A stretch of 64,000 bases of DNA from Strigamia acuminata. Its lineage: Eukaryota > Arthropoda > Chilopoda > Geophilomorpha > Linotaeniidae. A program made the position numbers and the translations under genes. Positions 23,409 to 57,185 of the stretch are shown here, in pieces. The stretch spans positions 4,588,001 to 4,652,000 of the forward strand of contig OX442322.1 in assembly GCA_949358305.1 (NCBI GenBank). Direction: 5' to 3'. The notes under the pieces were generated by a model. It ran no database searches. It was not told the origin of the DNA and saw only the letters and a list, made by a program, of their open reading frames with translations. Numbering within the stretch: position 1 is the stretch's first letter; each line of letters opens with the position of its first letter.

Positions 23409-23689
23409 GAACTAGTAGCACTTGAATCTGTCGATTCGGGCTTGATCAAAGTTTTGACCATTTCTGCCAACGAGTTGGTCAGCGAAGTTTGTAACTTATT
23501 TTCAAAAGTATTTAATTTCGCATCAAGTTTAGCATCTAGTGTTGCATCCAACACTTCTTGAGTTATCCACCTATTATTAGGCCGTTTAGAAGTTGGATCC
23601 ACAGTCGGGGAATCCGGAGTACCACGTTTTTGTAACTCTTCAGAGTTGAAATTTGTACGTGGTTTTGGATTTGTACATTCCCGACGCAT
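23399..23689 (-). pseudogene. Gag C-terminal fragment, duplicated unit
   Basis: 96 codons with the end of a zinc knuckle and a C-terminal segment rich in heptad-like Leu (VLDATLDAKLDAKLNTFENK), probably a coiled coil, ending SSKN at the frameshift site. It is separated from the rest of this gag unit by a small deletion near 23770. Confidence 0.7.
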
Positions 23690-28558: not shown

Positions 28559-28560
28559 CT

Positions 28561-30318
28561 TGTGACGATTCTACTTTTGGGCTAATTTATTAGTCCTTTT
28601 TGAGATAGATAATTCGGTTTATACAAGACGTTGCTAAGTTTAGCAACAACCTAACCGAGATAAGCTACGGAAGCCTTCACAAACATGAATATGTAATCAA
28701 GTAGAAATAACTTACAGTTTTAGTGTGATGTAACATATTTATTATTAAATATTAATCAATAACAAAGATGGGTTCTGGACGCGTGTAAACGGGCGGCATC
28801 AACTGGTTGAGGATCCGGGCGAAGCCAGAGGGATACGGCTGACTTGCGGCATCGTCACAAATATCGCTACGGAGACGTATTTGGTCCGCAGCATCGATTA
28901 TCTAAATATGTGAAGAGTCCTTCGCATAAACAGGAATATTCGGCAGAATATTCCATTGTCTCAAATGAATAAAAGTAAAGTAATTAGTGGAATACGACAA
29001 ATGAATTGTTGTATAAATATTAATTGGGCGGGGACCGTCACGACAATTGAAAGAACGTCGCGGGAGTTGTTGAGACTCCATCCGCCAGCATGCCTTACGA
29101 CGACAAGATCTCGTGATCAGGCGCCGAGTATTTAATTGTGTGCTTTAACTCGCTATCGGTGGTACCAACCACCAGGTAAACATTTCTATGGACTTACCGG
29201 TATAAAAAGATATTGCCAATACAGGATTACCAATGCCCGAGTAATTTATTTAACACAGTGTTGTTCAACTCCTGTTCACGGGTTACTAACCCGGAGGGTA
29301 CGATGGGACGGGGACCGTCACGACGGTCGAGAGAACCATCGCGGGAGGATTTGACTCCTCCATCCGCCAGCATGCCTTACGATGACGGGATCCAATGATC
29401 GAGCACCGGGTAAAATATTATTTGGCCACTGCCGTTGGATTACCATTATCCAGGTAGTTATTTATCGCAACATCTGAAGATATTACTCACGGGCTACCAA
29501 CCCGGCGTGTTACCTGTGCATTAGGCCTTTACCGACTTTTAACGAGCGGAAGGACCAATCGTAGAAAGACGGGAACCTGCGTGGGCTGTTTACAACAACC
29601 ATCCTGCAGCGGACTGTGGCCAGTTAGCTGAGGGACCTACTTTCATTTAGCAAGGTCGTACTGTATACGACCGTTATATTAAGCCACCGTACGAAGTCCT
29701 ACTGTCCCGTAGAACAGCTGGCTAACGTTACGGGGCCATTTCATGCGAATGCATGTCTATTACCGGAGTTAGCCTTCCCGAAATAGCCCTACAACAGCAA
29801 TAACAAAATAGTAATGAATACTAACTGTGGAAAGCTGAGGTGGCCTGATGTGTCGATAGAGAATAATGAAATCAAACGATAACAATTCAACTACAGACAA
29901 TATACAAGTTCAGTTATCAAGCAAGCAAGCAAACTTTTTAAGTGAGAAACAGATGCTTATATAGTTCTGTAGAACTACTAGATTGGCGATAGCCAATCAG
30001 CGTACGAATCGGCGGATTCGTGGGTCACTAGTCCGGACCTAATATATGACTATGTCCAGATGGGCCCAGTTGGGGTCCGGAAGGGTCCGATTGGTTCCCT
30101 TCGACAGGTAAGTAATGTGGATATTGATTCGATAGAATCAACATCATCAAGTAATTAATACTTAATTCATATTGAATAAAATAGTTATATTTTATTCACC
30201 GTGTCCAAATAATTATTTATCACACTTTTTAGTTTTGACCGAGTTTGAATTACGCGCGTTTGGTTAAACAGCGCCATCTATTGTGAACATTGATAACTAT
30301 CGATTTGTAATCATCACA
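28561..30318 (-). repeat. 5' LTR of Gypsy copy 1
   Basis: 1758 bp, about six differences from 14130-15887. Confidence 0.92.
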
Positions 30319-30586: not shown

Positions 30587-33500
30587 CTAATAAAATGTGG
30601 TGTAATCGCGTCGATCCTGCTTTCGTAGGCGGCGCGACCGGAAACTGCCAATTTCAGGCGGTCGCGCATGCGCGTCGCTATCGACCGCACTTGCGACACC
30701 TGGTGACGGTTTCGGTAGTTGTTTTTTCTCACTTTTCGTCCCAAGTTCGTTTTCGAATAGGCCTCGTAACGATATCTGGTCGTCATCGTCAATGAAACGT
30801 TCCGTTGCCGCGGGAACAGGTCTGTTTGACGAATTTTTGTTGTTTTTCGTGACTATTTCATTCTGTTTGTCTGTTTCTGTCAAATCCTCGGCAAATGTAA
30901 CCTTTTTAGCTGTTAAAGGTTTCATTATGTCATCTGAGATTTCTTCTCTTGCCTTGTATGGTTTTAATCGCTCTATGTTTACAATATCCATTTTCTTACC
31001 TGACGAACTTCGAATTTCGTAATCATTTGGTGCTGTTCTTCGCACTATCTCATATGGACCAAAGAATTGTGGCAGGAGTTTCTCGCTCAAACCAACCTTT
31101 CGATGTGGTGTTTTCAAATATACTAGTTCTCCTGGGTCGAATTCCACATGTACTCTGTCTAAATCAAAGCGTTTCTTGCTTTTTTCACCTTGTTCTTGTA
31201 TCCGTTCATTAGAAATTCTCCTTGCTTCCCTGATAAATCTGGAAGTACGCAAAGTGAATTCTTTTCGAGGAAGATTTAGATTAACATCCACATTGAGATC
31301 AGCTTCATAACCTCGCATTAAATAATAAGGGGTATAACCTGTTGTTTCATGGACTCCAGTATTATAAGAGAAAAGAAGAAATGGCAAAAATTCATCCCAA
31401 TCCGTGTGATCTTTATTTACATAATTCTGCAACATTTTTGCTAATGTTGCATTAAATCTTTCCGTGAGCCCATTTGTTCTTGGATGGTATCCGGAAGTGC
31501 TCTTGTGGACGGATTTGAATAATGCAGATATCTCCTTAATCATCTCATTTCTGTATTCTGTTCCCTTATCACTCAAAATCTCTCGTGGGCTTCCTTCTTT
31601 CACCATGACTTCATAAACAAGTGCTTTCGCTGCTTCAAGAGCTGTGCAAGCTGGTGCTGCTCTAGCTATTGCAGTGCGCAATAAATAATCCGTAATAACG
31701 AAAACAAACTTGTTTCCCGTGTCAGATGTTGGAAAACTTCCTAAAGTATCTATGGCGACTCTTTCAAACGGTCTCGACACTGTCGACCACGGTTGCATCA
31801 ATCCTTTTGGTGGCGTTGTCATAGTTTTTGCACTTGCACACGATGAACATGAGAGTACGTGATTCCTCACGTCCCTATAAATCTTAGGCCAGAAGAATCT
31901 TGTTCTTATCCTCTTCCACGTTTTGTTAAGGCCTAAATGAGCTCCTGTAAGACCGTCATGCATTTCAACTAATACGCACCTGCGTAAATGCTGCGGAACA
32001 TACAACAATTCTTCCGTGTTTAAGGAATCATATTTCTTCTTCTTAAACAAAGTGTCGCCTTGAAGTACGAATTGCTTTAGCGTTCGTCTTCTGTTGCGCG
32101 GAAGTTGCTCATTTTTCTGCAAGGTTGTGATGATTTCCAAAATCTTCTGATCTTTGCGCTGCTCAGCAGGCAAATTGAGATTCTCGAGAGCTAATGAAGG
32201 AATTTCTATGATTTCTTCTCCACCAACCTCTTCTGGAATTCTACTTAATGCATCGGCATCTGTATGTTTCTTGCCCGACTTATGCAGTACATCATAATCG
32301 TAATCAACCAATTGCAGACTCCATCGTGCTAACCTACCATTTGGATTCTTGACGCTTTTCAGCCATTGAAGGGCTGAATGGTCCGTGATGATGGTAAACT
32401 TCTTTCCATACACATAAGGTCGATACTTCTCTATGCCAAACAATATGGCGAGACATTCTCTTTCCGTCGCGTTATAGTTTTGTTCGGCTTGGCTCAGCAA
32501 CCTACTTGCATAACATATAACGTGCTCCTGATTGTTAATCTTCTGCTTCAGGATAGCTCCAAGACCGTAAGCACTAGCGTCCGTCGATATTATAAATGGC
32601 TGTGCGAAATTGGGGTGAGCCAGCACAGGTACCGTTACCAAAGCTGTTCTTAGTCGCTTAAATGCTTCTTCATGAGGCGGTCCCCAGTCGAATTTCTCGT
32701 CTTTCTTCGTAAGGTTGACCAAGGGTTTGGAAATATCAGCAAATCCTAAAATGAATTTTCTATAATATGAACACAAACCCAAAAATCCCCTTAATTGTTT
32801 GACATTTAGTGGCACCGGAAATTTTGCCACAGACTTGAGATTTCGTGGATCTGGTGAAACGCCCTCTGAATCAATTACATGTCCGAGATACCGGATGGTA
32901 TTGGTCCCGAAAGTACATTTACTCAGCTTCACCTTCAAATTCGCAATTTGCAGTTTTTCGAAAACTGAGTCCAGATCTTGTAAATGTTGTTCAAATGTTT
33001 TCGAAAAAATTATAAGGTCGTCAAGATAGGCTATACAGACCTTTCCCAGGAGGTTGCCCAATACTTTATTCATCAATTTTTGAAACGCGGCTGGGCTATT
33101 ACATAACCCCATTCCGAGGACATTAAATTCATAGTGTCCGGTTGAAGTGGTGAACGCTGTCTTCTCTCGGTCTTGTTCATTTATTTCAACTTGATGGTAT
33201 CCTTGGATTAAATCCATCATTGAGAAAAACTGGGCCCCTGCTAGTTGATCTAAAGTGTCATCTATTCTAGGTAGTGGGTACACCATTTTCTTTGTAATTG
33301 CGTTCAACCTCCTCCAATCAACACAAAACCTCCATTTACCATCTCTCTTCTTGATGAGCAATACTGGCGCACTCCAGGGACTTTTCGATTCCCTAACGAC
33401 TCCCTGTTCTAACAATTTTCTGGTTTCCTCAGCTTCTACTTCTTCTTCTGCGATTGAACGTCTATACGGCTGCAAATGAATAGGGTCATGTTCGCCCGTA

Positions 33501-34387
33501 TCAATTTTATGGCTAAAGTTGGTTACTCTTCCTAAATCTTTATCTGAAATGGCAAACCTGTCCTCATTCTTCTGGAGTAACTGCTTCATCTGCTGTTGTT
33601 GATTCTTATTCATCTTGTCTTTGGCTATTGAAGAGTCAAAATCAAAGCAATGTGCTTGCTTTTCATCCAACAATCCAACGCCTTTGGCAGTTGGGGAGTT
33701 AGAGTCAAAGCAATTTACTTGTTTTTCATCAAACAACCCAATTTCAATGATATAATGTGCCTTACCAATCGCAGACTTCTCCTGTAGAAATATGGACTTT
33801 GATGTTGGATTTGCCACTCGAATTACGCCTTTGCCGTTCTCAAATTTCGTCAATGTCTTGCAACAGAGAATTCCAAATCTATCGATTACATTACCTAACG
33901 GTTCCAAAAACATTTCTGTTGTCAAAGCTGTACTTAAATTAACTGGAACTACACATTCGTGCATTGGTGGAATTGCTATATTTTTTGTCACTCTCGCTAC
34001 ATAATTCTGATCCACATATGTCTTATTCATCGGGAAAACTGCTTCTACTCCGCTATTTCGGCCCACAAAGATTTTTTGTAAGTCATAATCGACGACACAC
34101 CTCGCAAATGTCATGAATGGATCACCCAATAAAAGCTGGTAATTGAAATTTCTAACTATCAAAACTTCAACTGCATACTGCAATTGTCCTATGTGAATAT
34201 TCAAATTTATCTTGCCCACTGGAGTTATTAAATCATTACCTATTCCTCGCAATCTAATGTTTGGCGTAGGCGTGTAATTCAACTGCAACATTTCTGCTAT
34301 TTCTTCACTCAAAAGGTTACTTTTTGCTCCAGTGTCCATGACTGCTTTTATTTCCAAATTCTTTACAATTACTGGGATTTCCAACAA
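30587..34387 (-). CDS. pol: Element D Pol polyprotein
   Basis: 1266 codons counted from a TTG; the frame is open further upstream in the -1 frame relative to gag, so it is probably expressed by frameshifting rather than from its own start. Protease AVMDTGAKSNLLS (about residue 16); RT with WRFCVDWRRLN, MGLCNSPAAF and YLDD (about 452); RNase H STDASAYGLG (about 599); integrase zinc finger HLGLNKTW...CSSC (about 810-850); DDE core with D in IDTLGSF, D in LSDKGTEY and E in NGLTERFN. The C-terminus is Arg/Lys-rich. The frame is uninterrupted, so D looks enzymatically competent. Confidence 0.93.
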   Translation of the reverse strand: MLEIPVIVKNLEIKAVMDTGAKSNLLSEEIAEMLQLNYTPTPNIRLRGIGNDLITPVGKINLNIHIGQLQYAVEVLIVRNFNYQLLLGDPFMTFARCVVDYDLQKIFVGRNSGVEAVFPMNKTYVDQNYVARVTKNIAIPPMHECVVPVNLSTALTTEMFLEPLGNVIDRFGILCCKTLTKFENGKGVIRVANPTSKSIFLQEKSAIGKAHYIIEIGLFDEKQVNCFDSNSPTAKGVGLLDEKQAHCFDFDSSIAKDKMNKNQQQQMKQLLQKNEDRFAISDKDLGRVTNFSHKIDTGEHDPIHLQPYRRSIAEEEVEAEETRKLLEQGVVRESKSPWSAPVLLIKKRDGKWRFCVDWRRLNAITKKMVYPLPRIDDTLDQLAGAQFFSMMDLIQGYHQVEINEQDREKTAFTTSTGHYEFNVLGMGLCNSPAAFQKLMNKVLGNLLGKVCIAYLDDLIIFSKTFEQHLQDLDSVFEKLQIANLKVKLSKCTFGTNTIRYLGHVIDSEGVSPDPRNLKSVAKFPVPLNVKQLRGFLGLCSYYRKFILGFADISKPLVNLTKKDEKFDWGPPHEEAFKRLRTALVTVPVLAHPNFAQPFIISTDASAYGLGAILKQKINNQEHVICYASRLLSQAEQNYNATERECLAILFGIEKYRPYVYGKKFTIITDHSALQWLKSVKNPNGRLARWSLQLVDYDYDVLHKSGKKHTDADALSRIPEEVGGEEIIEIPSLALENLNLPAEQRKDQKILEIITTLQKNEQLPRNRRRTLKQFVLQGDTLFKKKKYDSLNTEELLYVPQHLRRCVLVEMHDGLTGAHLGLNKTWKRIRTRFFWPKIYRDVRNHVLSCSSCASAKTMTTPPKGLMQPWSTVSRPFERVAIDTLGSFPTSDTGNKFVFVITDYLLRTAIARAAPACTALEAAKALVYEVMVKEGSPREILSDKGTEYRNEMIKEISALFKSVHKSTSGYHPRTNGLTERFNATLAKMLQNYVNKDHTDWDEFLPFLLFSYNTGVHETTGYTPYYLMRGYEADLNVDVNLNLPRKEFTLRTSRFIREARRISNERIQEQGEKSKKRFDLDRVHVEFDPGELVYLKTPHRKVGLSEKLLPQFFGPYEIVRRTAPNDYEIRSSSGKKMDIVNIERLKPYKAREEISDDIMKPLTAKKVTFAEDLTETDKQNEIVTKNNKNSSNRPVPAATERFIDDDDQISLRGLFENELGTKSEKKQLPKPSPGVASAVDSDAHARPPEIGSFRSRRLRKQDRRDYTTFY

Positions 34388-34494
34388 TGACTCCGAAATT
34401 TTTGCGTCAATTATTATGATGTTATCCTTTTTCCATCTTCTCTTCTTCTTCTTACTTCTATTTGGATGGTAACAGTTTCTTTGTGGCCGATCCT

Positions 34495-34746
34495 CTAGTT
34501 TCCCGTCTGAGATTGAGTGTTAACTGTAGGATTAGGACCTTCTCTTCTACGTCTTCTTGGTCTTTCTGCATTACCACCTCTATCCTGTTGGTATCTTGGT
34601 GGATTATAGAACTCGCAACTAAAATGATGATAGCATCCGCACGAACGAGTATTATTATTATTACTATTGTTGTTATTGTTAGTATTATAATTTTGACTAC
34701 CACCTTTATTACTACCTCTTTGAAAATTCTGACCTCCTTGTCTCAT
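34495..34746 (-). CDS. Element D nucleocapsid-like segment
   Basis: 83 codons, in the same frame as gag but after its TAA (34756-34758). Asn-run (NNNNNSNNNN), a Cys/His group CGCYHHFSC and a basic RPRRRRREG stretch, as expected of nucleocapsid. It is either separated from capsid by a nonsense mutation or reached by stop-codon readthrough. Confidence 0.6.
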   Translation of the reverse strand: MRQGGQNFQRGSNKGGSQNYNTNNNNNSNNNNTRSCGCYHHFSCEFYNPPRYQQDRGGNAERPRRRRREGPNPTVNTQSQTGN

Positions 34747-37787: not shown

Positions 37788-37935
37788 GGCCATGCTGCAG
37801 AATCCATACAGGTCGCGGTCGGGTTCATGTGTCATCTGACCATGTGGCAGAATCCGTACTCGGATCACGGTCGGGCACATGTACCTGGGCCATGCTGCAG
37901 TATCTGTATGGATCTCGGTCGGGCACAGATAACCT
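37788..37935 (+). repeat. 50-bp minisatellite, three units
   Basis: CATGCTGCAG / CATGTGGCAG / CATGCTGCAG recur at 37791, 37841 and 37891, exactly 50 bp apart, each followed by a CGGTCGGG string. It lies after the end of relic E pol and is cut by Gypsy copy 2. Confidence 0.75.
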
Positions 37936-39671
37936 TGTGACGATTCTACTTTTGGGCTAATTTATTAGTCCTTTGAGATAGATAATTCGGTTTATACAAG
38001 ACGTTGCTAAGTTTAGCAACAACCTAACCGGGATAAGCTACGGAAGTCTTTACAAACATGAATATGTGGACAAGTAGAAATAACTTACAGTTTTAGTGTG
38101 ACATGACATATTTATTACTAAATACTAACAACAAAAGATGGGTTCTTGACGCGTGTAAACGGGCGGCATCAACTGGTTGAGGATCCGGGCGAAGCCAGAG
38201 GGATACGGCTGACTTGCGGCATCGTCACAAATATCGCTACAGAGACGTATTTGGTCCGCAGCTCGAGTATCTAATAATGCGAAGAGTCCTTCGCATAAGT
38301 AGGAATATTCAGCAGAATATTCCATGTTCCAAATGAATAAAAGTAAAGTAATTAGTGGAATACAACAAATGAATTGTTGTATAAATATTAATTGGGCGGG
38401 GATCGTCACGACAATTGAGAGAACGTCGCGGGAGTTGTTGAGACTCCATCCGCCAGCATGCCTTACGACGACAAGATCTCGTGATCAGGCGCCGGGTATT
38501 TAATTGTGTGCTTTAACTCGCTATCGGTGGTACTAACCACCAGGTAAACATTTCTATGGACTTACCGGGTTTAAAAGATATTGCCAATACAGGATTACCA
38601 ATGCCCGAGTAATTTGTTTAACACGATATATTTTATATATCATTCACGGGTTACTAACCCGGAGGGTACGATGAGGCGGGGACCGTCACGACGGTCGAGA
38701 GAACCATCGCGGGAGGATTTGACTCCTCCATCCGCCAGCATGCCTTACGATGACGGGATCCATTGATCGAGCACCGGGTAAAATATTATTTGGCCACTGC
38801 CGTTGGATTACCATTATCCAGGTAGTTATTTATCGCAACATCTTGAAGATATTACTCACGGGCTACCAACCCGGCGTGTTACCTGTGCATTAGGCCTTTA
38901 CCGACTTTTAACGAGCGGAAGGACCAATCGTAGAAAGACGGGAACCTGCGAGGGCTGTTTACAACAACCATCCTGCAGCGGACTGAGGCCAGTTAGCTGA
39001 GGGACCTACTTTCATTTAGCAAGGTCGTACTGTATACAACCGTTATATTAAGCCACCGTACGAAATCCTACTGTCCCGTAGAACAGCTGGCTAACGTTAC
39101 GGGGCCATTTCATGCGAATGCATGTCTATTACCGGAGTTAGCCTTCCCGAAAAGGCCCTACAACAACAATAACAATAGTAATGAATACCGATTGTGGAGA
39201 GCTGAGGTGGCCTGATGTGTCGATAAGAAAGTGAAATCAAACGATAACAACAATTCAATTACAGACATTGACAGTTATCAAGCCAGGGGATTGAGAGGTG
39301 AGAAACTGATGCTTATATAGTTCTGTAGAACTACTAGATTGGCGACAGCCAATCAGCGTACGAATCAACGGATTCGTGGGTCACTAGTCCGGACCTAATA
39401 TATGACTATGTCCAGATGGGCCCAGTTGGGGTCTGAAAGGGTCCGATTGGTTCCCTTCGACAGGTAAGTAATGTGGATATTGTTTCGATAGAATCAACAT
39501 CATCAAGTAATTAATACTTAATTCTTATTGAATAAAATAGTTATATTTTATTCACCGTGTCCAAGTAATAGTTTATTACGCTTTTTGTTTCATCGAGTTT
39601 GAATTACGCGCGTTTGTTAAACAGCGCCATCTATTGTGAACATTGATAAATACTGATTTGTAATCATCACA
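37936..39671 (-). repeat. 3' LTR of Gypsy copy 2
   Basis: 1736 bp, same termini as the other copies. Confidence 0.92.
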
Positions 39672-40203
39672 CATCCCCCGGTGACAAGCATAGAGTTGGA
39701 CACGCTGGACACGTCGGTTACGGCCGCTGGAGGATCCTCCACGGGTTTAGCCGATCCTTCTACAGCCTGTCGAAGCTTACGGGCTCGCCCTCGTGCCAAG
39801 ATATTGGTTCGTTGAACCTTGGCAATTTCTTTTGCTCGGTCGAGCGTAAGACAGCCTCGCCCTCGCGACATCGCTCTTGGTCGAACGAATTCCTCTACAA
39901 CCTCGCTTCCGACGCTTTCGGTGGCCTGGACAGTTTCAGTAGAAACTTCGGAGTCCTCGGACGGCGGCGGTGATTGTCGAAGGAGTTCAAATCTTACCCC
40001 GGCGTTGGCTTCAGCACGGGTCCAGGTGAGGAAGCGCGGGTCGATGTAAACCGCTTCGCCACGACTATTCAGGAAAAGTCGGCACTTTGGGCAGTGAGCC
40101 CAACACCGCTTCTCATTCGGCTTAATGCCTTTCACCACGTGGGGCTGAACCTCCTTGCGCCACGGCTCCGAACGCGGTCGCGTTTTCCTTCCACGACAAT
40201 TTG
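39672..40203 (-). pseudogene. Third ORF of Gypsy copy 2, 3' part
   Basis: Continues the gene whose 5' part is at 46456-47214. It contains Cys cluster 2 (CWAHCPKCRLF) and the region to VTDVSS, then a deletion of about 1 kb relative to copy 1 joins it to the polypurine tract, so the acidic tail is replaced by a few residues read through the tract into the LTR. The polypurine tract is at 39672-39683. Confidence 0.8.
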
Positions 40204-41063
40204 TGTTACATATAGAGATAATTGTTAGACGTTAAAATCTGATAATTGAATTGTATAACATTGTTTAAATACGAGAATTTAGAGTCTTAAGTCGAAATTG
40301 TGAAAGCATATTTGTGTCAGTAAATGGTTTGATATATGTTGATCGTTTATTGTATAAACTGGATGAATTTCGGCTTATTTGATGTAAAATGTTATAGTGT
40401 TGCTGCTTGTATGCGGTACGAGGGCGCCACACGCAATGTGTTAACGTTCTCGTAACGTGTTAGTCTGTGGTGATGATGTTAAAGCAATGACATCATCGTG
40501 GTGAGAGATTGTATCTTTATTTATTATCTTTTTCGTTTTGTCATAAGATTTGTACTGTGTGTAATTTCAATGACGTCACCAGAATAAAAGTCAATCATTC
40601 TGTTTTAGTTTGCAACCGTGTACGTGTGTTTTTCTTCTGCTAAAACACCTCATTATACATTCATGAAAATAGGCCCAGATTGGACCAACTTCACCTATTT
40701 TCTAGGCATGGAAAACTAACAGTTTTGGACATTACATTTAGGATTCAACTACATTTGAACACAGCTTGGATTGTGAAACCCAGACATTGGTTTCACATTG
40801 GTTAATATGTGATAATATAACATTATCGCATGTGAGTACATTTATTTTACAAGACTTTATATTTATTTTCGTTGTATTTCACGTTGAATACACGTCCCGA
40901 GGAGCGAACGTTTCCACAACGCGAACGACGCCGAGCATACGCATCGCCGGAAAGCCTAACGACGCGCCGCTCGACGTTTGACGATTTATTGGATAGGACA
41001 TTCATATATCAGGTATTTTATTATTTCCACTGCGTTTATGAATATTTTGGCGAGTGTCCTACA
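40204..41063 (+). repeat. 5' LTR of the intact copia
   Basis: TGTTACATATAG...GTCCTACA, 860 bp. It has TGACGTCA near 40571 followed by GAATAAAA (about 40581), the probable polyadenylation signal. Confidence 0.95.
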
Positions 41064-41081
41064 TGGTAGCAGAGGGTGGTT
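41064..41081 (+). other. Primer-binding site of the intact copia, tRNA-iMet
   Basis: TGGTAGCAGAGGGTGGTT starts directly after the LTR. It is complementary to the 3' end of initiator tRNA-Met with one mismatch. Confidence 0.9.
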
Positions 41082-41129
41082 CTGCTAAAACCCGATATCG
41101 ACGGAAAATAGCGACGATACGACGGAAAA

Positions 41130-44100
41130 ATGGCGTCGAAGGGAAGCGCGGCGTCGGCGGCGGCAGGAATCGCGCCGCTTGACAAAAACAACTACGAGAC
41201 GTGGAAAGTGGACGTTCAATTGTTGCTTCAGGAACTCAATTTGTGGGGATTCCACGACAAAACAATTAAAGCGCCGCCGGATGGAACGTCGGCAACGGAC
41301 TTGGCTAAATACGAGAAGCGGAAAGCTCGTGCACGTGGGATTTTGTGCAACAGCGTCGCGACCAGACTGAAACCGTCGCTGTTAAAGCTGGACACATCGA
41401 AAGAGGTATGGGATTACCTGAAAAAGCTACATGAACCCACGTCAGTCGCGAGAAATGCAAAGATTCTCGAGGATTTTTACACGATTCGTTGCGGCGATAA
41501 AGAGGAAGTCGATACGTTCATCACACGTGTCGAATTGGCAGCGGACGAATTGAAATCAATAAAACAAGAGCCGAACGACAAAGTAAAAGCCTACACTTTA
41601 ATAAATAGAATTCGTAAAGACTACGAACATCAAGTGCAGGCTATTTACCAGTGGAGTGACGGGGACTTCACGTTTGATAAAGTTTCCGAGGCATTGCTTG
41701 CCGAGAGTGCACGTCGTCGATACACGACAGGAACGAGTTCTCCAACGATGGAATCCAGTGCTCTCAGTGTCAGTGCTTCCAACAATCAACAAGGATCGAG
41801 GAAACAAGACAACAAAGGAGGTAAGAGCAACTTTTCCAATATTCTTTGTTATAATTGCCACGAAAAGGGACATATTGCACGGAACTGTCAAATGCCAAAT
41901 ACAAAACAACAGGACAACACTCGTGGACGTGGCAAAGGGCGCGGACAGCCCCAACGAGGCAAGGGTTTACGTGGAGCCTTTTATGCATCATTTTTGGGGG
42001 AAAGTATGTCCAATTCAATTGAAAAAGTATGTGATGAGGACGCATGGTTTGTGGATTCCGGTGCATCAGATCACGTATGCGGGAAATTGGAATATTTCCA
42101 GACTTTCAAGTCATTACCTCCAACAAAATTACAATTGGGTCAGGGCACAGCTAGTATTACTGGCTGTGGTGCTGTATGCATCAGCACAATTGCAAATGGA
42201 ATCCACAACCATGTGGACTTAATAAATGTGTATTTTGTCGAGGGTTTCAAACGCAATTTGATTTCAAGTGGGAAAATTGATGAAGCTGGATTCAATCAAC
42301 ACATATACAATGGTGTGTTGAGAGTGTATTTACAAAATAACAAGGAGTGTTTATTGTTAGCAAACAGGCAGTCAGATGGATTGTATCGTGTCCAAGGAAA
42401 AGTTCAAATGAATGAGAATATGACAAATGCTATTGTTAATAATTTGAATTCAGTTTCTCAAAATGTTACCCAAGTTTCACCATTGATTGTACAGAAAGAT
42501 GTAAAACGAATTGAGCAATTACAGAGCAAGAGTCCAAGTTATGAAATTGTTTCCCAACAACCTGCACCTGTTGTGCAAAGTTTTGCAGTTTCTGTCGACA
42601 CGTGGCATAAGCGTTTTGCCCACATGCATGTTCAGGGGCTAGCCACGTTGTTGAAAAGTGAGGAGACCACGGGATTAGATTTCACAGGAAATCTAAACAA
42701 TTTTGCGTGTGATTCATGCAGGATTGCAAAATCAACCCGTGCTAATTACAAAGTTAGAGATGATCGCGAGCGTGGGGAACCGCTTGAATTGTTGCATTTA
42801 GACGTGTGGGGGCCCAACCCCACAACATCACTGGGTGGTGCACGTTATTTGTTGTGCATTGTGGATGATGCAACGCGATTCTCGTGGGTTTATCCTATGA
42901 AAACGAAGGACGAGGCTTTTCCAATTTTCAAAACGTTCTTGGCGCGCGTTGAGCGCCGTTCGAATAGAAAGGTGCATGAAATCAGAACGGACCGGGGTGG
43001 GGAGTTTTGCAGCAAGGAATTTGATTCTTTTCTGCAACAAAAGGGCATTGGTGCCCAAAGAACAAACCCGTACTCAGCACAAATGAACGGCATTGCGGAG
43101 CGATTAAACCGCTCAATATTAAACAATGTGCGCGCAATAATTGAGGATACAAATTTGCCGTGGATTTTGTGGGCAGAATTGGCTGTCAGCTACATTTATT
43201 TAAAGAACAGGTATCCACATTTATTTGCGAAGGGACAAATTCCTTACATTAAATTCAGACAAAGAAGCATGGCAGTGAAGCATTTACGTGCAATTGGCTC
43301 GTTATGTTTCGTACATATTCCCAAACCCAAAAGAGATAGCAAACTTGACTCAAGAGCATGGAAGGGCATACTGGTGGGGTATGCATTCACTACAAGGGGT
43401 TATAGGGTTTGGAATCCAATTACAAATGAGGTGGTCGAAACAAAACATTTGGTCATTGATGAGTCCAGGGACTGGAAGTCCTTTAATGCTGTGGACATGA
43501 ATGTTCAACAACCAGATTTGGATACAAATGGTTACGATTCGGATGAGAGTGGGTTGTATCAACAGGAATTCCATGATCCGATGCCACCCACTACACCACC
43601 GGGTTCGCCTCCCGTTATGCGTAAAGTCCCAGCACCCCTCGCGCAGGTCCCACCACAAGTGGGATCAATGGCCCAAGCGCCTATTCCCACACAGCCAGTC
43701 CAAGGGGGGGCAAAAGTTAAGAAACCTCGAATTGCCACCCGAACCACAGATGCAGATGGGTGGGATAGGGAGCAAGTGACCAGGCAAGGAGGTGTTACAG
43801 CTGGGAGAATTGATGTGCTGTTTTACGCACCTGATGGCACAGGGCCTTTGAAGACAAAGAAAGAAGTCGAGGCTTTCTGCAGGGGGAATAGAATCTTCTA
43901 CAACCCTTTAAAATTCGATTTCACCCCAGTGAAGGAGCCAATCAATACAATCGAACAATCTTCCGATGAGGAACCAATGGAAACGGTCCTCACAGCGACG
44001 ACACCTCCCATCAGCGTGTATTGTGCTGTCACGCAGCCCAAAACATACGAGGAGGCGGCTTCCTCGCCTCAATCTAAAGATTGGAGAGAGGCGATGGAAG

Positions 44101-45560
44101 AGGAGATCGAAACATTACAAGAAAGAGAAGTGTACGAGGAGGTGCCGCGACCAAAGGCCAAGGTCTTGGGTTACAAATGGGTATACAAGTTGAAACCAGA
44201 CGAAGATGGCAATATTGTGAGATATCGTGCGAGGGTAGTCGCACAAGGGTTTAGACAAACGCAAGGTGTGGACTACACCGAAGTGTTCTCGCCGGTCGTA
44301 AATTTCACATTAATCCGACTGTTTTTCTGTTTACTGGTGATCTTGCGTGGCTGGGTCGACGTCCATCTGGACGTCAAATGCGCGTACCTTTACGGCAAAT
44401 TAGATTGTCCCATACATATGGAGATCCCGCAAGGATTCAAAACACCGGGAACGGACAATGTTTGGCTCCTGTACAAATCATTGTACGGATTACACCAATC
44501 CGGCAGGATGTGGTTCGAGGAGTTAAATACCAGTCTGCTGGATTTGGGTTTCACCAAAGTGATTGGATGCAATTGCGTTTACACTTTTGATCGCAATGCC
44601 GTCCTCTTGATATACGTGGACGACATGATTTTGTTTGCAAAAGATGTGGAAACCCAGAGCGCCCTAATTGACCTCATTAAACAAAAATTCAACATTGTGA
44701 ACTTGGGTCGGATCACAAAATTGCTAGGTGTGAAATTTTATCGTGAGAATGGGAAGGTATGCCTTCACCAGAAGCATTTCATAGATAAGTTGGCTGTGAA
44801 ATTCAACTTGACTGAAAATACTAAAGTGAGAGTTCCCATTGCAGCCGGGTCAACGTTTAATCACAATGTTAAAGAAGTTGATCCAAACTCAGACTTTCCA
44901 TATCGATCGCTGGTCGGGAGTTTGATGTTTCTTGCGTCCAGGACAAGGCCGGATATCTTATATTCCACAATATACATGTCCCAATTTAACACAAGCTACA
45001 CTCAGAAACACGTCAAGGCTCTTGTACAAATTGCTCAATACGTTGTGAATACGAAAAATTATTGTGTTAATTTATCGAAATGCGTTAATACGGATTTGCG
45101 CATTTACACCGATGCTTCCTGGGCGACGGATCTCCATCACTGCAAAAGTTTTGGGGAGTTTGCATTGTTTATGGGCGACGCCCTCATTAGTTGGGGTTGT
45201 CGGAAACAAAGTTCCGTGGCGTGCAGTACTATGGAAGCGGAATATTTGGCGCTAGTTCACGCCGTCCAGGAAGGATATTGGCTATCCAGCATATTCGAAA
45301 GTTGTGTACTTTTTGATTATATTAATATGCCAATAGTGTATTCGGATTCGTTGTCATCGATACAATTTGTGGAAAATGATCTTGAAAATTCTAAAACTAA
45401 ACATATCCGAATACGCTATTGCTTCTTAAGAGACTGGTTCGAGAAAGAGTATTTCTCAATTGAGAAAATTCCGACAAAATGGAATTTAGCAGATTTGTTC
45501 ACAAAGTGGCTGCCTCAGGACCGGTTAAAGGACTTGTGTGCAGATATGTTGGATGTTTGA
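41130..45560 (+). CDS. gag-pol: Copia Gag-Pol polyprotein with MBD-like domain
   Basis: 1476 codons from ATG 41130, 48 bp after the primer-binding site. Gag (KNNYETWKVDVQLLL) with zinc knuckle CYNCHEKGHIARNC (about 239); protease WFVDSGASDHVCG (about 305); integrase zinc-binding HKRFAHMH...CDSC, then catalytic Asp in HLDVWGP (about 557), Asp in RTDRGGEF (about 619) and Glu in GIAERLNRS (about 655); an MBD-like segment at about 875-932; RT with RYRARVVAQGFRQ and YVDDM (about 1162); RNase H with YTDASWATD (about 1326) and STMEAEYLAL. The order PR-IN-RT-RH is Ty1/copia and all catalytic residues are present. The length is within the usual copia range. The segment between integrase and RT is normally a variable linker; here it folds, by motif, as a DNA-binding domain. 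Confidence 0.96.
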   Translation: MASKGSAASAAAGIAPLDKNNYETWKVDVQLLLQELNLWGFHDKTIKAPPDGTSATDLAKYEKRKARARGILCNSVATRLKPSLLKLDTSKEVWDYLKKLHEPTSVARNAKILEDFYTIRCGDKEEVDTFITRVELAADELKSIKQEPNDKVKAYTLINRIRKDYEHQVQAIYQWSDGDFTFDKVSEALLAESARRRYTTGTSSPTMESSALSVSASNNQQGSRKQDNKGGKSNFSNILCYNCHEKGHIARNCQMPNTKQQDNTRGRGKGRGQPQRGKGLRGAFYASFLGESMSNSIEKVCDEDAWFVDSGASDHVCGKLEYFQTFKSLPPTKLQLGQGTASITGCGAVCISTIANGIHNHVDLINVYFVEGFKRNLISSGKIDEAGFNQHIYNGVLRVYLQNNKECLLLANRQSDGLYRVQGKVQMNENMTNAIVNNLNSVSQNVTQVSPLIVQKDVKRIEQLQSKSPSYEIVSQQPAPVVQSFAVSVDTWHKRFAHMHVQGLATLLKSEETTGLDFTGNLNNFACDSCRIAKSTRANYKVRDDRERGEPLELLHLDVWGPNPTTSLGGARYLLCIVDDATRFSWVYPMKTKDEAFPIFKTFLARVERRSNRKVHEIRTDRGGEFCSKEFDSFLQQKGIGAQRTNPYSAQMNGIAERLNRSILNNVRAIIEDTNLPWILWAELAVSYIYLKNRYPHLFAKGQIPYIKFRQRSMAVKHLRAIGSLCFVHIPKPKRDSKLDSRAWKGILVGYAFTTRGYRVWNPITNEVVETKHLVIDESRDWKSFNAVDMNVQQPDLDTNGYDSDESGLYQQEFHDPMPPTTPPGSPPVMRKVPAPLAQVPPQVGSMAQAPIPTQPVQGGAKVKKPRIATRTTDADGWDREQVTRQGGVTAGRIDVLFYAPDGTGPLKTKKEVEAFCRGNRIFYNPLKFDFTPVKEPINTIEQSSDEEPMETVLTATTPPISVYCAVTQPKTYEEAASSPQSKDWREAMEEEIETLQEREVYEEVPRPKAKVLGYKWVYKLKPDEDGNIVRYRARVVAQGFRQTQGVDYTEVFSPVVNFTLIRLFFCLLVILRGWVDVHLDVKCAYLYGKLDCPIHMEIPQGFKTPGTDNVWLLYKSLYGLHQSGRMWFEELNTSLLDLGFTKVIGCNCVYTFDRNAVLLIYVDDMILFAKDVETQSALIDLIKQKFNIVNLGRITKLLGVKFYRENGKVCLHQKHFIDKLAVKFNLTENTKVRVPIAAGSTFNHNVKEVDPNSDFPYRSLVGSLMFLASRTRPDILYSTIYMSQFNTSYTQKHVKALVQIAQYVVNTKNYCVNLSKCVNTDLRIYTDASWATDLHHCKSFGEFALFMGDALISWGCRKQSSVACSTMEAEYLALVHAVQEGYWLSSIFESCVLFDYINMPIVYSDSLSSIQFVENDLENSKTKHIRIRYCFLRDWFEKEYFSIEKIPTKWNLADLFTKWLPQDRLKDLCADMLDV
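43752..43925 (+). other. MBD-like domain inside the copia polyprotein
   Basis: Residues about 875-932 of the copia polyprotein. The segment DGWDREQVTRQGGVTAGR, then IDVLFYAPDGTGPLKTKKEV, EAFC and FDF lines up with the MBD/TAM pattern GW.RE..R..G...GK.DVYY.SP.G...RSK.E...Y...FDF. The Trp, Arg-Glu, Asp-Val, aromatic, Pro-x-Gly and Lys-Lys/Glu positions are all where the family has them. In MBD proteins this fold binds methylated CpG. Identification by eye; whether the methyl-CpG contact residues are kept is not established. Confidence 0.65.
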
Positions 45561-45582
45561 ATCAAGATATAACGTGTAACAT

Positions 45583-45595
45583 TTAAGGAGGTGAT
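45583..45595 (+). other. Polypurine tract of the intact copia
   Basis: AAGGAGGTGAT lies directly before the 3' LTR start TGTTACA, 23 bp after the stop codon. Confidence 0.75.
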
Positions 45596-46455
45596 TGTTA
45601 CATATAGAGATAATTGTTAGACGTTAAAATCTGATAATTGAATTGTATAACATTGTTTAAATACGAGAATTTAGAGTCTTAAGTCGAAATTGTGAAAGCA
45701 TATTTGTGTCAGTAAATGGTTTGATATATGTTGATCGTTTATTGTATAAACTGGATGAATTTCGGCTTATTTGATGTAAAATGTTATAGTGTTGCTGCTT
45801 GTATGCGGTACGAGGGCGCCACACGCAATGTGTTAACGTTCTCGTAACGTGTTAGTCTGTGGTGATGATGTCAAAGCAATGACATCATCGTGGTGAGAGA
45901 TTGTATCTTTATTTATTATCTTTTTCGTTTTGTCATAAGATTTGTACTGTGTGTAATTTCAATGACGTCACCAGAATAAAAGTCAATCATTCTGTTTTAG
46001 TTTGCAACCGTGTACGTGTGTTTTTCTTCTGCTAAAACACCTCATTATACATTCATGAAAATAGGCCCAGATTGGACCAACTTCACCTATTTTCTAGGCA
46101 TGGAAAACTAACAGTTTTGGACATTACATTTAGGATTCAACTACATTTGAACACAGCTTGGATTGTGAAACCCAGACATTGGTTTCACATTGGTTAATAT
46201 GTGATAATATAACATTATCGCATGTGAGTACATTTATTTTACAAGACTTTATATTTATTTTCGTTGTATTTCACGTTGAATACACGTCCCGAGGAGCGAA
46301 CGTTTCCACAACGCGAACGACGCCGAGCATACGCATCGCCGGAAAGCCTAACGACGCGCCGCCCGACGTTTGACGATTTATTGGATAGGACATTCATATA
46401 TCGGGTATTTTATTATTTCCACTGCGTTTATGAATATTTTGGCGAGTGTCCTACA
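45596..46455 (+). repeat. 3' LTR of the intact copia
   Basis: 860 bp, about three substitutions from 40204-41063. Confidence 0.95.
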
Positions 46456-47214
46456 ATTTGGACAACGCATCAATGAAGAACCCGCGGATGCACCACAGCA
46501 CCACCCACAGCCGACGCAAAATGGGCAGATCGTCTCCGTGGCTTGGTCGGTCACGATGTTATCGTGAGGTATTCCGGCTGCCATATCGCGTTCGCACTGT
46601 TCCTTGCGTAGACGGGCCTTCTCGTCCTTCTTTTTCGCCTTGTTGGCGGCTCGGTACTTGCGATTGCGAGATACGGGCTCCGAAAAACGCAAAGCGCCCG
46701 GTGGCGGCTCATTCCATCCGTACTCTGATGCCGAAGATTCAGCACCGGCAGGGAGATGCACAACAGACGTTGATTGTCCCGCCACAGTCGGTGCAGTTGC
46801 ATTTGACGTGTTGGCGACGGTTGGCGCCACGCTTGCAGTTGGCGGCCGAAATTCTGGCGAATGCGGGGCCAACGGGACGTTGATAACGTTTGCGGGCGGA
46901 TACGCCACCTGGGCCAGCGGGGCCAATTGCGCCGACTCATAAACGGTTGGCTGTGCAGATGTGGATGGGGCCTGCATCATCGCATTTAAGTCGAGCGGAA
47001 GTCCGTCCGGATGGACGCTCAGCCAATTCAGCGTTGCTAACTGCAGTGGCGTCAGGGCATACATGGAGGCTGGTGCCGTTGGTATCGGTTGGGCCCTCAA
47101 ATATGCACGTTCGGCCGAACAGCGTTGCTCGTCACTAGACGAGGTGGACGAGCTGGAACTTTCATGACGGTGACGTCGATGACTCCGTTTCGAACGGTGT
47201 TTACCACTTCCCAT
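46456..47214 (-). pseudogene. Third ORF of Gypsy copy 2, 5' part
   Basis: From ATG 47212-47214 (MGSGKHRSKRSHRRHRH), the first 250 codons of the third ORF, up to Cys cluster 1 (CPFCVGCGWCC...RCPNC), where the copia insertion at 46455 breaks it. It resumes at 40203. CTGCAG directly precedes the ATG as in copy 1. Confidence 0.85.
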
Positions 47215-48268: not shown

Positions 48269-51200
48269 TCAATTACAACAGAACTTTGAGGCTGTTCCTC
48301 GTTGTTGGTATGGTTTTTTAAATACTGCAGTGATGTTTCGCACGAAATTTTCATCTGCATATTTAGGATTCGGCCTTCGCTCTCGTCGAGGACGAAGGCT
48401 AGTTCGCGGAACTACCGGTTGGGGTTTGCGGGGTTTTCGAGGTGGTTTCTTTGGAGTTTCACCTCTTTTCAACGCCGCTTTCTTTTCTATAGCAGTTAAT
48501 CGTTGTCTATGTCTATGTTTAGACTTAATGGGCGCAGATTTGTCAATTTGCACCGAAGTTGAGTCGGATAATTCCATTGGAATTTCTGAAGAAGTTTCAG
48601 GAATTAATTCCATTTCTTCAGCATCCGGAAGTTGGTTACTTTCATCCATCCATTTAGGATTTTCTTGAGGCGAGTAAGAGGCGGACTTTTGTCCTACTTT
48701 CCAAGTCTCAATTGGGTATGAGGGCGTATAGGGGTACAACGCTTTAATGTTCACTGATTTTTCGATCGAACCATCAGATAATTTGCGTAATTTATACGCT
48801 CCGCCTGGAAGTACTTTAGTAATCTCCCACGGACCATCTCTCTTCTCCGCGAAACCAGCAGAAATATTTTTATCTGCGCACGAGAGAATGTGAGTTTGTT
48901 TCCAAACTAAATCTCCAACTTCGAACTCCGTAATTACGAACTTTTGTTCGTGTATTTTTCTATGCCGCTCAAAATTCAATTGAATTCTACGATGCATCTC
49001 TTGATGCGATCTGCGCAATACATCCAATAGTACTCTGACATATTTTTCTGGATTTTCTTTGTCAAATGGATTGGCATGTTTAATAATCCTTGGGTCGAAA
49101 GGTAATGTTACGATTCGTCCCGTGTTCAGTAACATCGGGCTTGAGCCCGTTGCCGCTGAGACATTATTTCTCATCGCGAACGCGAATTCGTCTAAATAAC
49201 GTGGCCATTGCGTGTGCACATCTGTGTACAGGGCCAGCATCGTCTTTATATCTCTATTGGCTCGCTCTGTCGGGTTCGCCTGGGCATGATACGTGCTCGT
49301 ATGAGACGGGCGAATGTTGTACATTTCGCAATACTCATTGTAAATATCGGAAACAAATTGTTTTCCGTTATCGCTCACAATCTTTTTGGGGTGTCCCCAT
49401 CTGTTTGTAACAGATCTTAATTCTTGAACGCAGTTAGCGCTTGTGGCTTTGGTCAAAGCCTTAATTTCAACGAACTTGGTACAATTGTCAATAATGACAA
49501 AAATATACTGGTTTTGGGACCTTCCCGCGGGTTTTGGGCCCATCAAGTCCATGTTGATACATTCCCAAGGATTGGTCATGTTGTGGGGCGTGTAAGGAGC
49601 TGCGTGCCTTTTCTGTTGAATAGGCTTGTACTGAGCGCAGTGCGTGCAGCTTTTAACGTAGTTCCTGACACTTCTACTCATACCCGGCCAGAAATATATT
49701 AAACGTGTTTTCTCAAGCGTCTTACTCATCCCAGCGTGACCGCTTAGGGGGTGGCCATGACAAGCGAAGAGTACTCGCTTTACGAGTGCACTGGGTACAA
49801 CGGCTTTAAAGCCATTTCCCGAATCGTTTAATTCCTCTTCGAACGAAGGGTTAAAATAGATGATCATTTGATCACCATCAACTTCTTTTTTGTCTAAACA
49901 ATAGTTTTTGACTTTGTTTTTCCATTCTTTTATTTCAGATTGTGGTATCCCAACAACCTTGTCATTCAATAAATATTCTCGAATGCGTTTGCATTCAGTA
50001 TCTAGTAACTGAGCATCTATTATTTCTCTCCTTGTAGGGGGGACTTCTTTAAGTACTTCAGTCAACGCACTGTACAAGGTTTCTTGTACTTCCTCCCCCT
50101 CCCTTTCTTCAGAACATTCTTTAGAATTTTCTGAAAAATAGGAACGTATACTGGCCAAAAATTCTCTTTTTTCTGGGGCACGATTTAATGAAACAGAAGG
50201 ATTTCCGTCCCATTCAGGCCAGTATTGTTTAATTTCGACAGGTTCCACATGATCACGAAGAGGAATGTCTTCCTCTGTTAGTGGAGCTCTAGAAAGTGCA
50301 TCTGCAACTTGGTTAGCAGCACCTTTCCGAAAAACAATTTTAAAATTTCCACATTGGATTCTTAAGGCCCATCGGCCAAATTTCCCAGATGGTTCAGGCG
50401 TTCGCATCAACCATTTCAGTGCTTCAGCATCTGACTCTAAAGTGAACGTACCATATTCGAGATATGGTTTAAATCGATCGATAGCCCACACGACTGCGAG
50501 ACATTCAAGTTCGGGCGTTGTATAACGCTTCTCCGCTCCACGTAAAACTCTGCTTGCGTAAGCAACGGGTCTGGGTACAGAAATGTTTTTCTGCTTCTTT
50601 TCATCGAATATATCGACGTCTTGGCAAAGGACAGCTCCTAAGCCTTCATGTGAAGCGTCAGTCATGACAACAAATGGCAAAGTCATATCTGGTTTGTGTA
50701 GACAATTGTCACCACAAAGTAGCTCTTTAATTTTATTAAAAGCTTCTGTCTGCTCATCTCCCCATTCAAATGGAGTTTTCTCATTCATCATACGTGTGTA
50801 TGGTGCGGCAATAGTTCCGTAATTTGGAACAAACTTCCTGAAGAAGTTAGTCATGCCGTGAAAGCGCTGAATGTCTTTAGCACACGTGGGGGTGGGAAAT
50901 TTCATAATCGCCGATATTTTATCGGGATCACCGAAGAGACCTTCGAGTTTAATCCAGTGGCCCAAGAATTTTAATTCTGTACGCCCAAAACGAGATTTTG
51001 CTTTATTTATTGTCATGTTGGCTTGGTTAAGCCTTTCTAGAACATCTCGAACGTGTTTGAGATGATCATCCCAATTATCTGAATATACAATTACGTCATC
51101 CAAATAGACTAACGCGTAGTCCTGTAAAGCTGAGCCTAAAATGCCTTCCATCAGACGCTGGAAAGTACAAGGCGCATTGCAAAGGCCGAACGGCATTCGC

Positions 51201-52468
51201 ACAAATTGATAAGGGCCGTTTGGCGTATAAAACGCTGTTTTTGGACGATCTTCCTCACACATTTCGACCTGATAGTAACCTTTGACAAGGTCAATGGACG
51301 TAAAATACTTTGCCGGACCAGTATTATGCAATAAAAGGTCAATACTTGGCATCTGTATTACTTCGACTTCGGTGATGGCATTCAGCCACCGGTAGTCGAT
51401 GCACATCCTATACGAGCCGTCAGGCTTCGCAACAATGACGGGATGACTTATGAAGGACCCTTTGGCCTTTTCAATGAGTCCATCCTGTTCCAATTCTGCA
51501 GCTAGTTTGGTCATAATGGCTCTCTTGGCCGGGTTATACATTCTATACTGCATTTTGGGCAATGAATGCCCTTCTTTGAACTTAATACGATGTTGGGTCA
51601 CGTTAGTGCACCCAACTTGATCACGAAATACATTCGGTATCGAGTTAACCACTTCGCGAAGTGCTAGTCTTTGTTCCGGAGTGCAGTCGCTCTCCTCAAC
51701 TAATTTTTCATCCCAAGTCAACACAGGAGTGTCTGTTAACTCAATTGAGTTGAGAGTGGACGACAGTCCTAAATAATCGAAAGTAATTCGATTTAACGGG
51801 GCGAGGGCCAAATTGGCTTCTTCCGACTCATAAGGGGCGGACCAATTAGGTTTATCTGCACAAGAGAACTCTTGTAAATGTGGATGCGGACTAATTTTCT
51901 GTCTGCGCATGAAATTGTGACCAAGTATCAAGCCACAAACTCGTTTTGCCAAAACGATGAAATTCATTGGTGTAAATTCATCAGCCCATTGCACGCACAA
52001 AGTTATTTGTCCGACAGGCTTGTGTGCTACGCCTACAGCGTTAACCAACATGTTTCTGGGAGCCTCTTGCAAAATTTCCGGCAGAGCCTGAATTTCAGAC
52101 AAAAGTTGTTCTCCAATGTAACATTGAGATGCTCCTGTATCCATGAGCGCGTTGTAGGTGAGCCCACCAATTGTGATCTTCATTCGAGGATCATCTTTAT
52201 TATTACCCAAAGTAATATTGTGCAAATTATTACCACCTATGACTCTGTTGAGTCGGCGAAGTCTACAGAATTTCTTCGTGTAGCACTTGTGAGGAAATAA
52301 TGTCAGATTTTTTAATTGTTCTGTCATTTCTTGCAAGTTCTCATCTACTCCACCACTATGACTAGTGGCTATTTCAAGACAAGTTGTGTCTATATCCATA
52401 AATAAAATCTCCGATGTAGCATTAGCTACTTCTGGGGGATGGAATAAACCTTCGTCCCCCGGATCTAG
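48269..52468 (-). CDS. pol: Gypsy copy 2 Pol polyprotein
   Basis: Uninterrupted frame of about 1400 codons, nearly identical to copy 1, with DTGA protease, YLDD RT, TDASHEGLG RNase H, HHCC finger and DDE integrase. It starts in the -1 frame at the slippery site 52468-52474; the first ATG is at 52397-52399 (MDIDTTCLE). Between copies the substitutions are few and mostly conservative (for example KSKHRHRQR kept in the basic tail). Confidence 0.93.
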   Translation of the reverse strand, partial: LDPGDEGLFHPPEVANATSEILFMDIDTTCLEIATSHSGGVDENLQEMTEQLKNLTLFPHKCYTKKFCRLRRLNRVIGGNNLHNITLGNNKDDPRMKITIGGLTYNALMDTGASQCYIGEQLLSEIQALPEILQEAPRNMLVNAVGVAHKPVGQITLCVQWADEFTPMNFIVLAKRVCGLILGHNFMRRQKISPHPHLQEFSCADKPNWSAPYESEEANLALAPLNRITFDYLGLSSTLNSIELTDTPVLTWDEKLVEESDCTPEQRLALREVVNSIPNVFRDQVGCTNVTQHRIKFKEGHSLPKMQYRMYNPAKRAIMTKLAAELEQDGLIEKAKGSFISHPVIVAKPDGSYRMCIDYRWLNAITEVEVIQMPSIDLLLHNTGPAKYFTSIDLVKGYYQVEMCEEDRPKTAFYTPNGPYQFVRMPFGLCNAPCTFQRLMEGILGSALQDYALVYLDDVIVYSDNWDDHLKHVRDVLERLNQANMTINKAKSRFGRTELKFLGHWIKLEGLFGDPDKISAIMKFPTPTCAKDIQRFHGMTNFFRKFVPNYGTIAAPYTRMMNEKTPFEWGDEQTEAFNKIKELLCGDNCLHKPDMTLPFVVMTDASHEGLGAVLCQDVDIFDEKKQKNISVPRPVAYASRVLRGAEKRYTTPELECLAVVWAIDRFKPYLEYGTFTLESDAEALKWLMRTPEPSGKFGRWALRIQCGNFKIVFRKGAANQVADALSRAPLTEEDIPLRDHVEPVEIKQYWPEWDGNPSVSLNRAPEKREFLASIRSYFSENSKECSEEREGEEVQETLYSALTEVLKEVPPTRREIIDAQLLDTECKRIREYLLNDKVVGIPQSEIKEWKNKVKNYCLDKKEVDGDQMIIYFNPSFEEELNDSGNGFKAVVPSALVKRVLFACHGHPLSGHAGMSKTLEKTRLIYFWPGMSRSVRNYVKSCTHCAQYKPIQQKRHAAPYTPHNMTNPWECINMDLMGPKPAGRSQNQYIFVIIDNCTKFVEIKALTKATSANCVQELRSVTNRWGHPKKIVSDNGKQFVSDIYNEYCEMYNIRPSHTSTYHAQANPTERANRDIKTMLALYTDVHTQWPRYLDEFAFAMRNNVSAATGSSPMLLNTGRIVTLPFDPRIIKHANPFDKENPEKYVRVLLDVLRRSHQEMHRRIQLNFERHRKIHEQKFVITEFEVGDLVWKQTHILSCADKNISAGFAEKRDGPWEITKVLPGGAYKLRKLSDGSIEKSVNIKALYPYTPSYPIETWKVGQKSASYSPQENPKWMDESNQLPDAEEMELIPETSSEIPMELSDSTSVQIDKSAPIKSKHRHRQRLTAIEKKAALKRGETPKKPPRKPRKPQPVVPRTSLRPRRERRPNPKYADENFVRNITAVFKKPYQQRGTASKFCCN

Positions 52469-52474
52469 TTTTTT
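52434..52474 (-). promoter_or_regulatory. -1 frameshift signal, Gypsy copy 2
   Basis: A AAA AAC (52468-52474), TAG (52465-52467), spacer, stem GGGGGA (52455-52460) with TCCCCC (52434-52439). Sequence as in copy 1, but gag is already stopped upstream by the palindrome at 52598. Confidence 0.75.
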
Positions 52475-52594
52475 GAACTAGTAGCACTTGAATCTGTCGA
52501 TTCGGGCTTGATCAAAGTTTTGACCATTTCTGCCAACGAGTTGGTCAGCGAAGTTTGTAACTTATTTTCAAAAGTATTTAATTTATTTAATTCC

Positions 52595-57183: not shown

Positions 57184-57185
57184 CT

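Follow-up and report, generated by a model that had tools for sequence, protein, structure and literature searches.

A methyl-CpG-binding-type domain lies between integrase and reverse transcriptase in a lineage of Ty1/copia elements of the centipede Strigamia acuminata

We analyzed a stretch of 64,000 nucleotides from the genome of the geophilomorph centipede Strigamia acuminata (assembly GCA_949358305.1, contig OX442322.1, positions 4,588,001 to 4,652,000, hereafter the window). Positions 40204–46455 of the window form a complete Ty1/copia element, with a pair of long terminal repeats (LTRs), a 5-bp target site duplication (TSD) and a single frame of 1476 residues. Between the integrase and the reverse transcriptase (RT) of this polyprotein lies a true methyl-CpG-binding domain (MBD)-type domain, a type with which cells read DNA methylation. 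Related elements across the genome carry the same domain in the same place, where it is conserved and shares its ancestry with the RT; they include recent copies and are unevenly placed. We propose, with moderate confidence, that a copia lineage captured the MBD once, long ago, and has kept it under selection as an integrase-tail tether on DNA or chromatin.

A sequence-only reading of the window had described an MBD/TAM-like segment at 43752–43925, which codes for residues 875–932 of the plus-strand frame 41130–45560, and had placed it between integrase and RT of an intact polyprotein. Each of these points was borne out. The frame of 1476 residues has no internal stop, and the Pfam MBD profile (PF01429) matches residues 876–936 (43755–43937, plus strand) with an E-value of 7.9e-7 and 29.1 bits, relative to a curated cut-off of 21, and scores 32.3 bits on an isolated 200-residue piece. 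The match follows the SH3-like domain of integrase (SH3_retrovirus, residues 713–782, 43266–43475, plus strand) and a linker, and precedes the RT (RVT_2, residues 1000–1238, 44127–44843, plus strand). The motifs G..DV, an aromatic pair, P.G, KKE and FDF are present as described, while GW.RE..R was wrong, the sequence GWDREQVTR reading GW.RE...R. Relatives were sought among solved structures, where phmmer against PDB sequences returned 29 distinct sequences at E-values of at most 1, each named as an MBD-family or MeCP2-type chain. MBD3 was the top match for the window domain (E 4.1e-6), and MBD2 was the nearest solved relative by sequence for two other MBD-copia families. A weak, low-confidence structure model folded from the single window sequence (mean pLDDT, the predicted local distance difference test, of 54.9) had matches that were specific to MBD chains, with MBD3 structures the best. 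Thus, the profile and the structure model, two of the checks proposed with the sequence-only reading, both returned MBDs, and the outcome named there as refuting did not arise. The domain was probably captured from an MBD2/3-type gene, the donor being a guess from sequence likeness. The host has an MBD2/3-type gene of its own, with an MBD_C match on contig C5 (C5:5733299–5733592).

We scanned the host genome (237.5 Mb in 157 contigs) and scored 150 matches for each profile, from 1092 candidates for MBD, 2633 for RVT_2 and 3461 for gypsy. Among the 150 scored MBD matches, 130 lie within open frames of at least 1000 residues, as counted from the list. We read 28 stretches around MBD matches, some overlapping or of the same family. 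A transposon-type domain was present in 27 of these; the other (locus L023, C3:20309085) differs in kind and is possibly a host exon. PF01429 scored above its cut-off, at the same place, in all five other full-length frames scanned (38.9–42.0 bits) and in pieces of three of four broken copies (44.2–46.9 bits). For the fourth, L057, the scanned piece lay upstream of the MBD; the genome scan gives this MBD, which contains one stop, 49.6 bits. Every scanned piece containing both neighbors has the MBD after the SH3-like domain and before the RT. These elements fall into at least eight sequence groups (the window's, L049/L059/L060, L050/L058, L051, L052, L053, L054/L055 and L056/L057). Five relatives of the window family were read in the MBD: three are whole and close, L074 matches the window domain exactly from KKPRI through FDF, and the frame of L071 is broken. 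An LTR probe gave 40 listed matches at 96–100% (of 86 candidates) and a 701-bp linker probe gave 40 listed matches at 75–100% (of 42 candidates). Of the eight loci that yielded a pair of LTR-type repeats, some of them clipped by the locus edge, seven have repeats that are 99.1–99.7% identical, and several MBD copies are therefore young. A protein search with the MBD region returned 15 candidates, none at an E-value of 0.01, a weak negative, and a search of viral contigs found none.

Comparison of eight full frames, which belong to five groups and are hence not independent, reveals the MBD as a conserved island within free linker. Mean pairwise identity is 0.46–0.56 in the MBD blocks, 0.16–0.31 in the linker upstream and 0.01–0.21 in the linker downstream. 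The MBD is under purifying selection, with a Nei-Gojobori ratio of nonsynonymous to synonymous rates (dN/dS) of 0.03–0.10 in eight of the ten pairs giving a ratio; the outliers are 0 for the window and L074 and 0.19 for L049 and L052. The upstream linker shows ratios of 0.18–0.33 (five pairs). Integrase and RT together give 0–0.03 in the four cases with a ratio, and the MBD is thus somewhat less constrained than these enzymes. MBD and RT identities co-vary (Mantel r 0.94, p 0.0001, nine rows). The simplest history is therefore a single old capture, after which the MBD was inherited together with pol. A chance motif, or a passenger carried without selection in a disordered linker, could be suspected from the modest score of the window domain and its poor single-sequence model. 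We rejected this explanation, which is exceedingly improbable given the recurrence of the domain in other frames and groups, at up to 46.9 bits over protein pieces, its conservation and dN/dS, and the specific fold match.

The retention of the MBD across many related elements suggests that it helps to choose or read the landing place. By analogy with chromodomains, we propose that a copia ancestor took up an MBD from an MBD2/3-type gene in one event, and that the domain would stay behind the integrase, most likely as its C-terminal tail after protease cleavage. This tail would bind DNA or chromatin, hold the pre-integration complex there ahead of strand transfer and thereby steer integration. 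We compared the residues of ten aligned rows with methyl-CpG-reading MBDs, taking the relevant positions, in MeCP2 numbering, as W104, R106, R111, D121, Y123 and R133. The equivalents of W104, R106, R111 and D121 are invariant in all ten rows, so both the first arginine finger (R111) and the aspartate (D121) of methyl-CpG readers are in place. The second arginine finger (R133) is Arg in all nine rows from other groups. The window row has Lys at this position, as do the four window-family relatives with a whole frame there, so the second finger is absent from this family. Tyr is found at the Y123 equivalent in three of the ten rows and is absent from the other seven.

Judged by sequence, the host encodes DNMT1. 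DNMT1-RFD matches occur at four places, three of them adjoining DNA-methylase matches, and a further methylase match is DNMT1-like (E 4e-58); one other methylase place that we checked is DNMT2-like. DNMT3 was not identified among the host methylase matches, for which no DNMT3-specific profile was run. The DNMT1-like loci (C3:35916032–35920945, C1:11839123–11843606, C3:32740723–32745759 and C1:30368704–30371121, the last compared with named proteins) suggest that the maintenance methyltransferase is duplicated in this arthropod genome. We sought a methylation footprint in CpG content and in CpG decay among copies and found no strong sign of one. The CpG observed/expected ratio is 1.12 in the window, 0.98 in the element frame and 1.11 in the whole element, with no depletion, and CpG transitions per site between copies are 1.0–1.6 fold those at GpC in seven pairs. 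Methylation may therefore exist in the host, yet heavy germ-line methylation of the copies seems unlikely.

Next, we compared the placement of copies on the eleven large contigs, using 149 MBD matches (the host-like C3:20309085 was removed), the 150 best RVT_2 matches and 150 gypsy matches. Matches on small contigs were removed (16 MBD, 3 other copia, 8 gypsy), as were two of the 40 window-family copies. All comparison RVT_2 matches are more than 2 kb away from any listed MBD match. Gypsy matches within 500 kb number 1.49 for MBD-copia, 0.41 for other copia and 0.61 for random points (p 6e-14), and the median distance to the contig end is 2.3 Mb for MBD-copia, 7.1 Mb for other copia, 5.3 Mb for random points and 2.6 Mb for gypsy. 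The contrast between MBD-copia and other copia holds after collapse to one copy per Mb, without contig C1, and with the window family alone. When counts are taken per Mb, MBD-copia rise with gypsy (rho 0.43), and their correlation with other copia is weak and negative (rho -0.15). Contigs C12 and C13, of about 10 Mb each and together 8.4% of the genome, hold 20 of the 40 listed window-family copies and are perhaps a heterochromatic or sex-linked compartment. On C1, copies crowd at the end that has no telomere array in its last 3 kb, while the opposite end has the array; the telomere seen is of the arthropod TTAGG type. As a guess, the crowded compartment may lie around a centromere instead of next to a telomere. 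Gene bodies, put forward as a target in the sequence-only reading, are not favored, since copies crowd where gypsy matches are dense and the window copy lies inside a gypsy-type element.

How far methylation enters into the proposed tether has to be weighed separately. In the special case of a methylation reader, the MBD would bind methyl-CpG and steer integration toward methylation or, through methylation, to silent chromatin. The DNMT1-type enzymes of the host, the first finger and aspartate kept throughout, Arg at the second finger in nine of ten rows, MBD2 and MBD3 as the nearest solved relatives, and the distinct placement of the copies are consistent with steering to, or sensing of, methylated DNA. 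Against it stand the replacement of the second finger by Lys in the window family, the seven rows without Tyr at Y123, the undepleted CpG with its faint excess of transitions, and the DNMT3 result given above. On balance, we regard this special case as unlikely, and a dependence of the MBD's role on methylation as doubtful. It is likewise rather improbable that an animal copia lineage picks its integration sites by DNA methylation or associated chromatin, via an integrase-linked methyl-CpG reader that descends from one capture of an MBD2/3-type gene; if it did, methyl specificity would have been loosened in the window family, as one branch of the lineage, by the change of one arginine finger to Lys. 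Some MBD and TAM domains bind independently of methylation. A role of this kind, in which the MBD simply clamps DNA or offers a docking surface to proteins such as co-repressors, and so protects the cDNA, enters chromatin or blunts silencing, is plausible, although we lean against it. It would fit the Lys of the window family and the lack of a clear footprint, but pure docking would not need the DNA-contact residues, which are among the best-kept positions.

Several observations weigh against the tether itself. Gypsy elements are crowded into the same parts of the genome as MBD-copia, and a scan of the window's three gypsy pol frames gave no MBD match; the compartment may thus merely tolerate insertions, with copies purged elsewhere. 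The comparison copia were counted as MBD-free because no listed MBD match (the best 150 of 1092) lies within 2 kb, and they are probably another group, with RT scores of 233–275 bits relative to 170–194 bits in the seven frames that combine the MBD with a complete RT. In addition, many pairs have a saturated dS and were given no ratio. Differential survival explains the crowding as well as targeting does. As a full account, with the MBD doing some other job and the copies found beside gypsy since they persist only in gene-poor regions, it is a serious alternative that we nevertheless think falls short of probable. The similar crowding of gypsy agrees with it, as does the spread over 1-Mb bins with a protein-kinase match, which hold 24 of 133 MBD, 44 of 147 other copia and 30 of 142 gypsy matches (77 of the 229 bins hold a match; 117 of 133 kinase matches were used, after 16 second pieces near listed ones were removed). 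Yet the best-scoring other copia, many of them also in long open frames, show no such crowding, and several MBD copies are young. Many of the kinase matches (whole profile, single frames of about 340–490 residues) themselves crowd at C1:29–47 Mb and C8:3.9–6.7 Mb, a possible lineage-specific expansion.

The window element has the features of Ty1/copia throughout. Its two 860-bp LTRs, identified by comparison with each other (5' LTR, TGTTAC...CCTACA, 40204–41063; 3' LTR, 45596–46455; both plus strand), differ by three mismatches (99.65% identity) and are bounded by the 5-bp TSD ATTTG (left copy 40199–40203, repeated at 46456–46460). A primer-binding site, TGGTAGCAGAGGGTGG, lies directly 3' of the 5' LTR (41064–41079, plus strand). 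GGTAGCAGAGG likewise lies directly 3' of the 5' LTR in seven of the 15 other loci measured (L049, L051, L052, L053, L058, L059 and L060); among the remaining eight, L061 has a 73-bp repeat only, with different letters after it, and seven have no LTR pair. The gag-pol frame, from translation and a Pfam scan, contains in order Retrotran_gag_2, zf-CCHC, Pol_BBD, gag_pre-integrs, rve, SH3_retrovirus, MBD and RVT_2. Its gag is thus copia-type and its integrase precedes the RT in one pol frame, which is not the chromovirus order of RT before integrase. No chromodomain was found in the polyprotein among the 11 Pfam families listed at E-values up to 1. For the approximately 240 residues after the RT match Pfam lists no RNase H, and a copia-like motif was recognized there by eye. 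A purine-rich stretch seen by eye 5' of the 3' LTR, AAGGAGGTGAT (45585–45595, plus strand), is a possible polypurine tract.

The copia insert is flanked by sequence of a gypsy-type element, and alignment of the flanks located an unoccupied paralogue elsewhere in the window (16898–19234). The left flank aligns to it at 92.4% over 501 columns, up to 17396, and the right flank at 90.8% over 1853 columns, from 17397, with the empty site between these positions. The window also has three gypsy pol frames of 1310–1402 residues, identified by Pfam scan on the minus strand (19203–23411, 48269–52477 and 30587–34519). Thus, the copia copy sits in a nest of transposons. The first two of these frames belong to copies of one element, with 94% identity over 7.7 kb. 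Joining the copia flanks gives a 460-residue minus-strand frame that spans the insertion site; neither of its two pieces had a Pfam match. A 1.7-kb repeat occurs five times in the window (3534–5273, 14129–15887, 28560–30318, 37934–39671 and 57184–58921; one inverted; 92–99.7% identical), possibly as LTRs of gypsy elements. A 463-residue minus-strand frame (12626–14017) matches the Ulp1/C48 peptidase profile marginally, at 21.1 bits relative to a cut-off of 20.7, and 5269–6762 (minus strand) is a remnant of another copia-type element, with a Pol_BBD match.

We found no MBD-bearing copia element in the literature searched, a weak negative from few searches, with most subscription journals and preprints outside their coverage; within this scope, nothing contradicts the sequence-only reading, which knew of no described copia family with this domain. 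In the portions of text available to us, the methyl-CpG-binding mentions refer to a co-expressed transcript (PMC5055719) and a plant silencing protein (PMC8616336), the term MBD does not occur in PMC5890265, and the terms methyl, chromodomain and additional domain do not occur in the GalEa paper (PMC3587641).

Comparison with known systems indicates what the MBD adds. The window element shares Gag, a zinc knuckle, integrase before RT, LTRs and a 5-bp target duplication with Ty1/copia elements, including the animal GalEa clade, and differs from them by the extra MBD between integrase and RT. MBD2 and MBD3 resemble the MBD-copia domain in sequence and fold but are host regulators rather than polyproteins. 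Yeast Ty5 and Ty1 are copia elements with targeting stretches at the integrase C-terminus, which in Ty5 lead to silent chromatin. They provide an analogy for an integrase tail as a targeting device within copia, but their stretches are short, bind host proteins and lack a folded MBD. Integrase-borne chromatin readers are thus already known for histone marks, which chromodomains read instead of DNA, and for host proteins. A folded reader of the DNA-methylation type, fixed in diverse and recently active copia, would make methylation-guided site choice or reading directly testable in an animal, and the many variants found in nature, some having the second arginine finger and others lacking it, would allow binding and placement to be compared. 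Retrotransposons of dinoflagellates and charophytes have captured DNA methyltransferases, according to PMC5890265. Both they and MBD-copia took up methylation machinery, theirs a writer and that of MBD-copia reader-type, so a reader-type domain now joins the writer among the methylation parts captured by retrotransposons. In chromoviruses, the C-terminal end of integrase bears a chromatin reader (PMC3605345). They are Ty3/gypsy elements with an integrase-linked chromodomain, whereas the window element is copia, and by analogy the MBD may play a parallel part. If the methyl-reader proposal were true, this lineage would be the DNA-mark counterpart of the chromovirus chromodomain.
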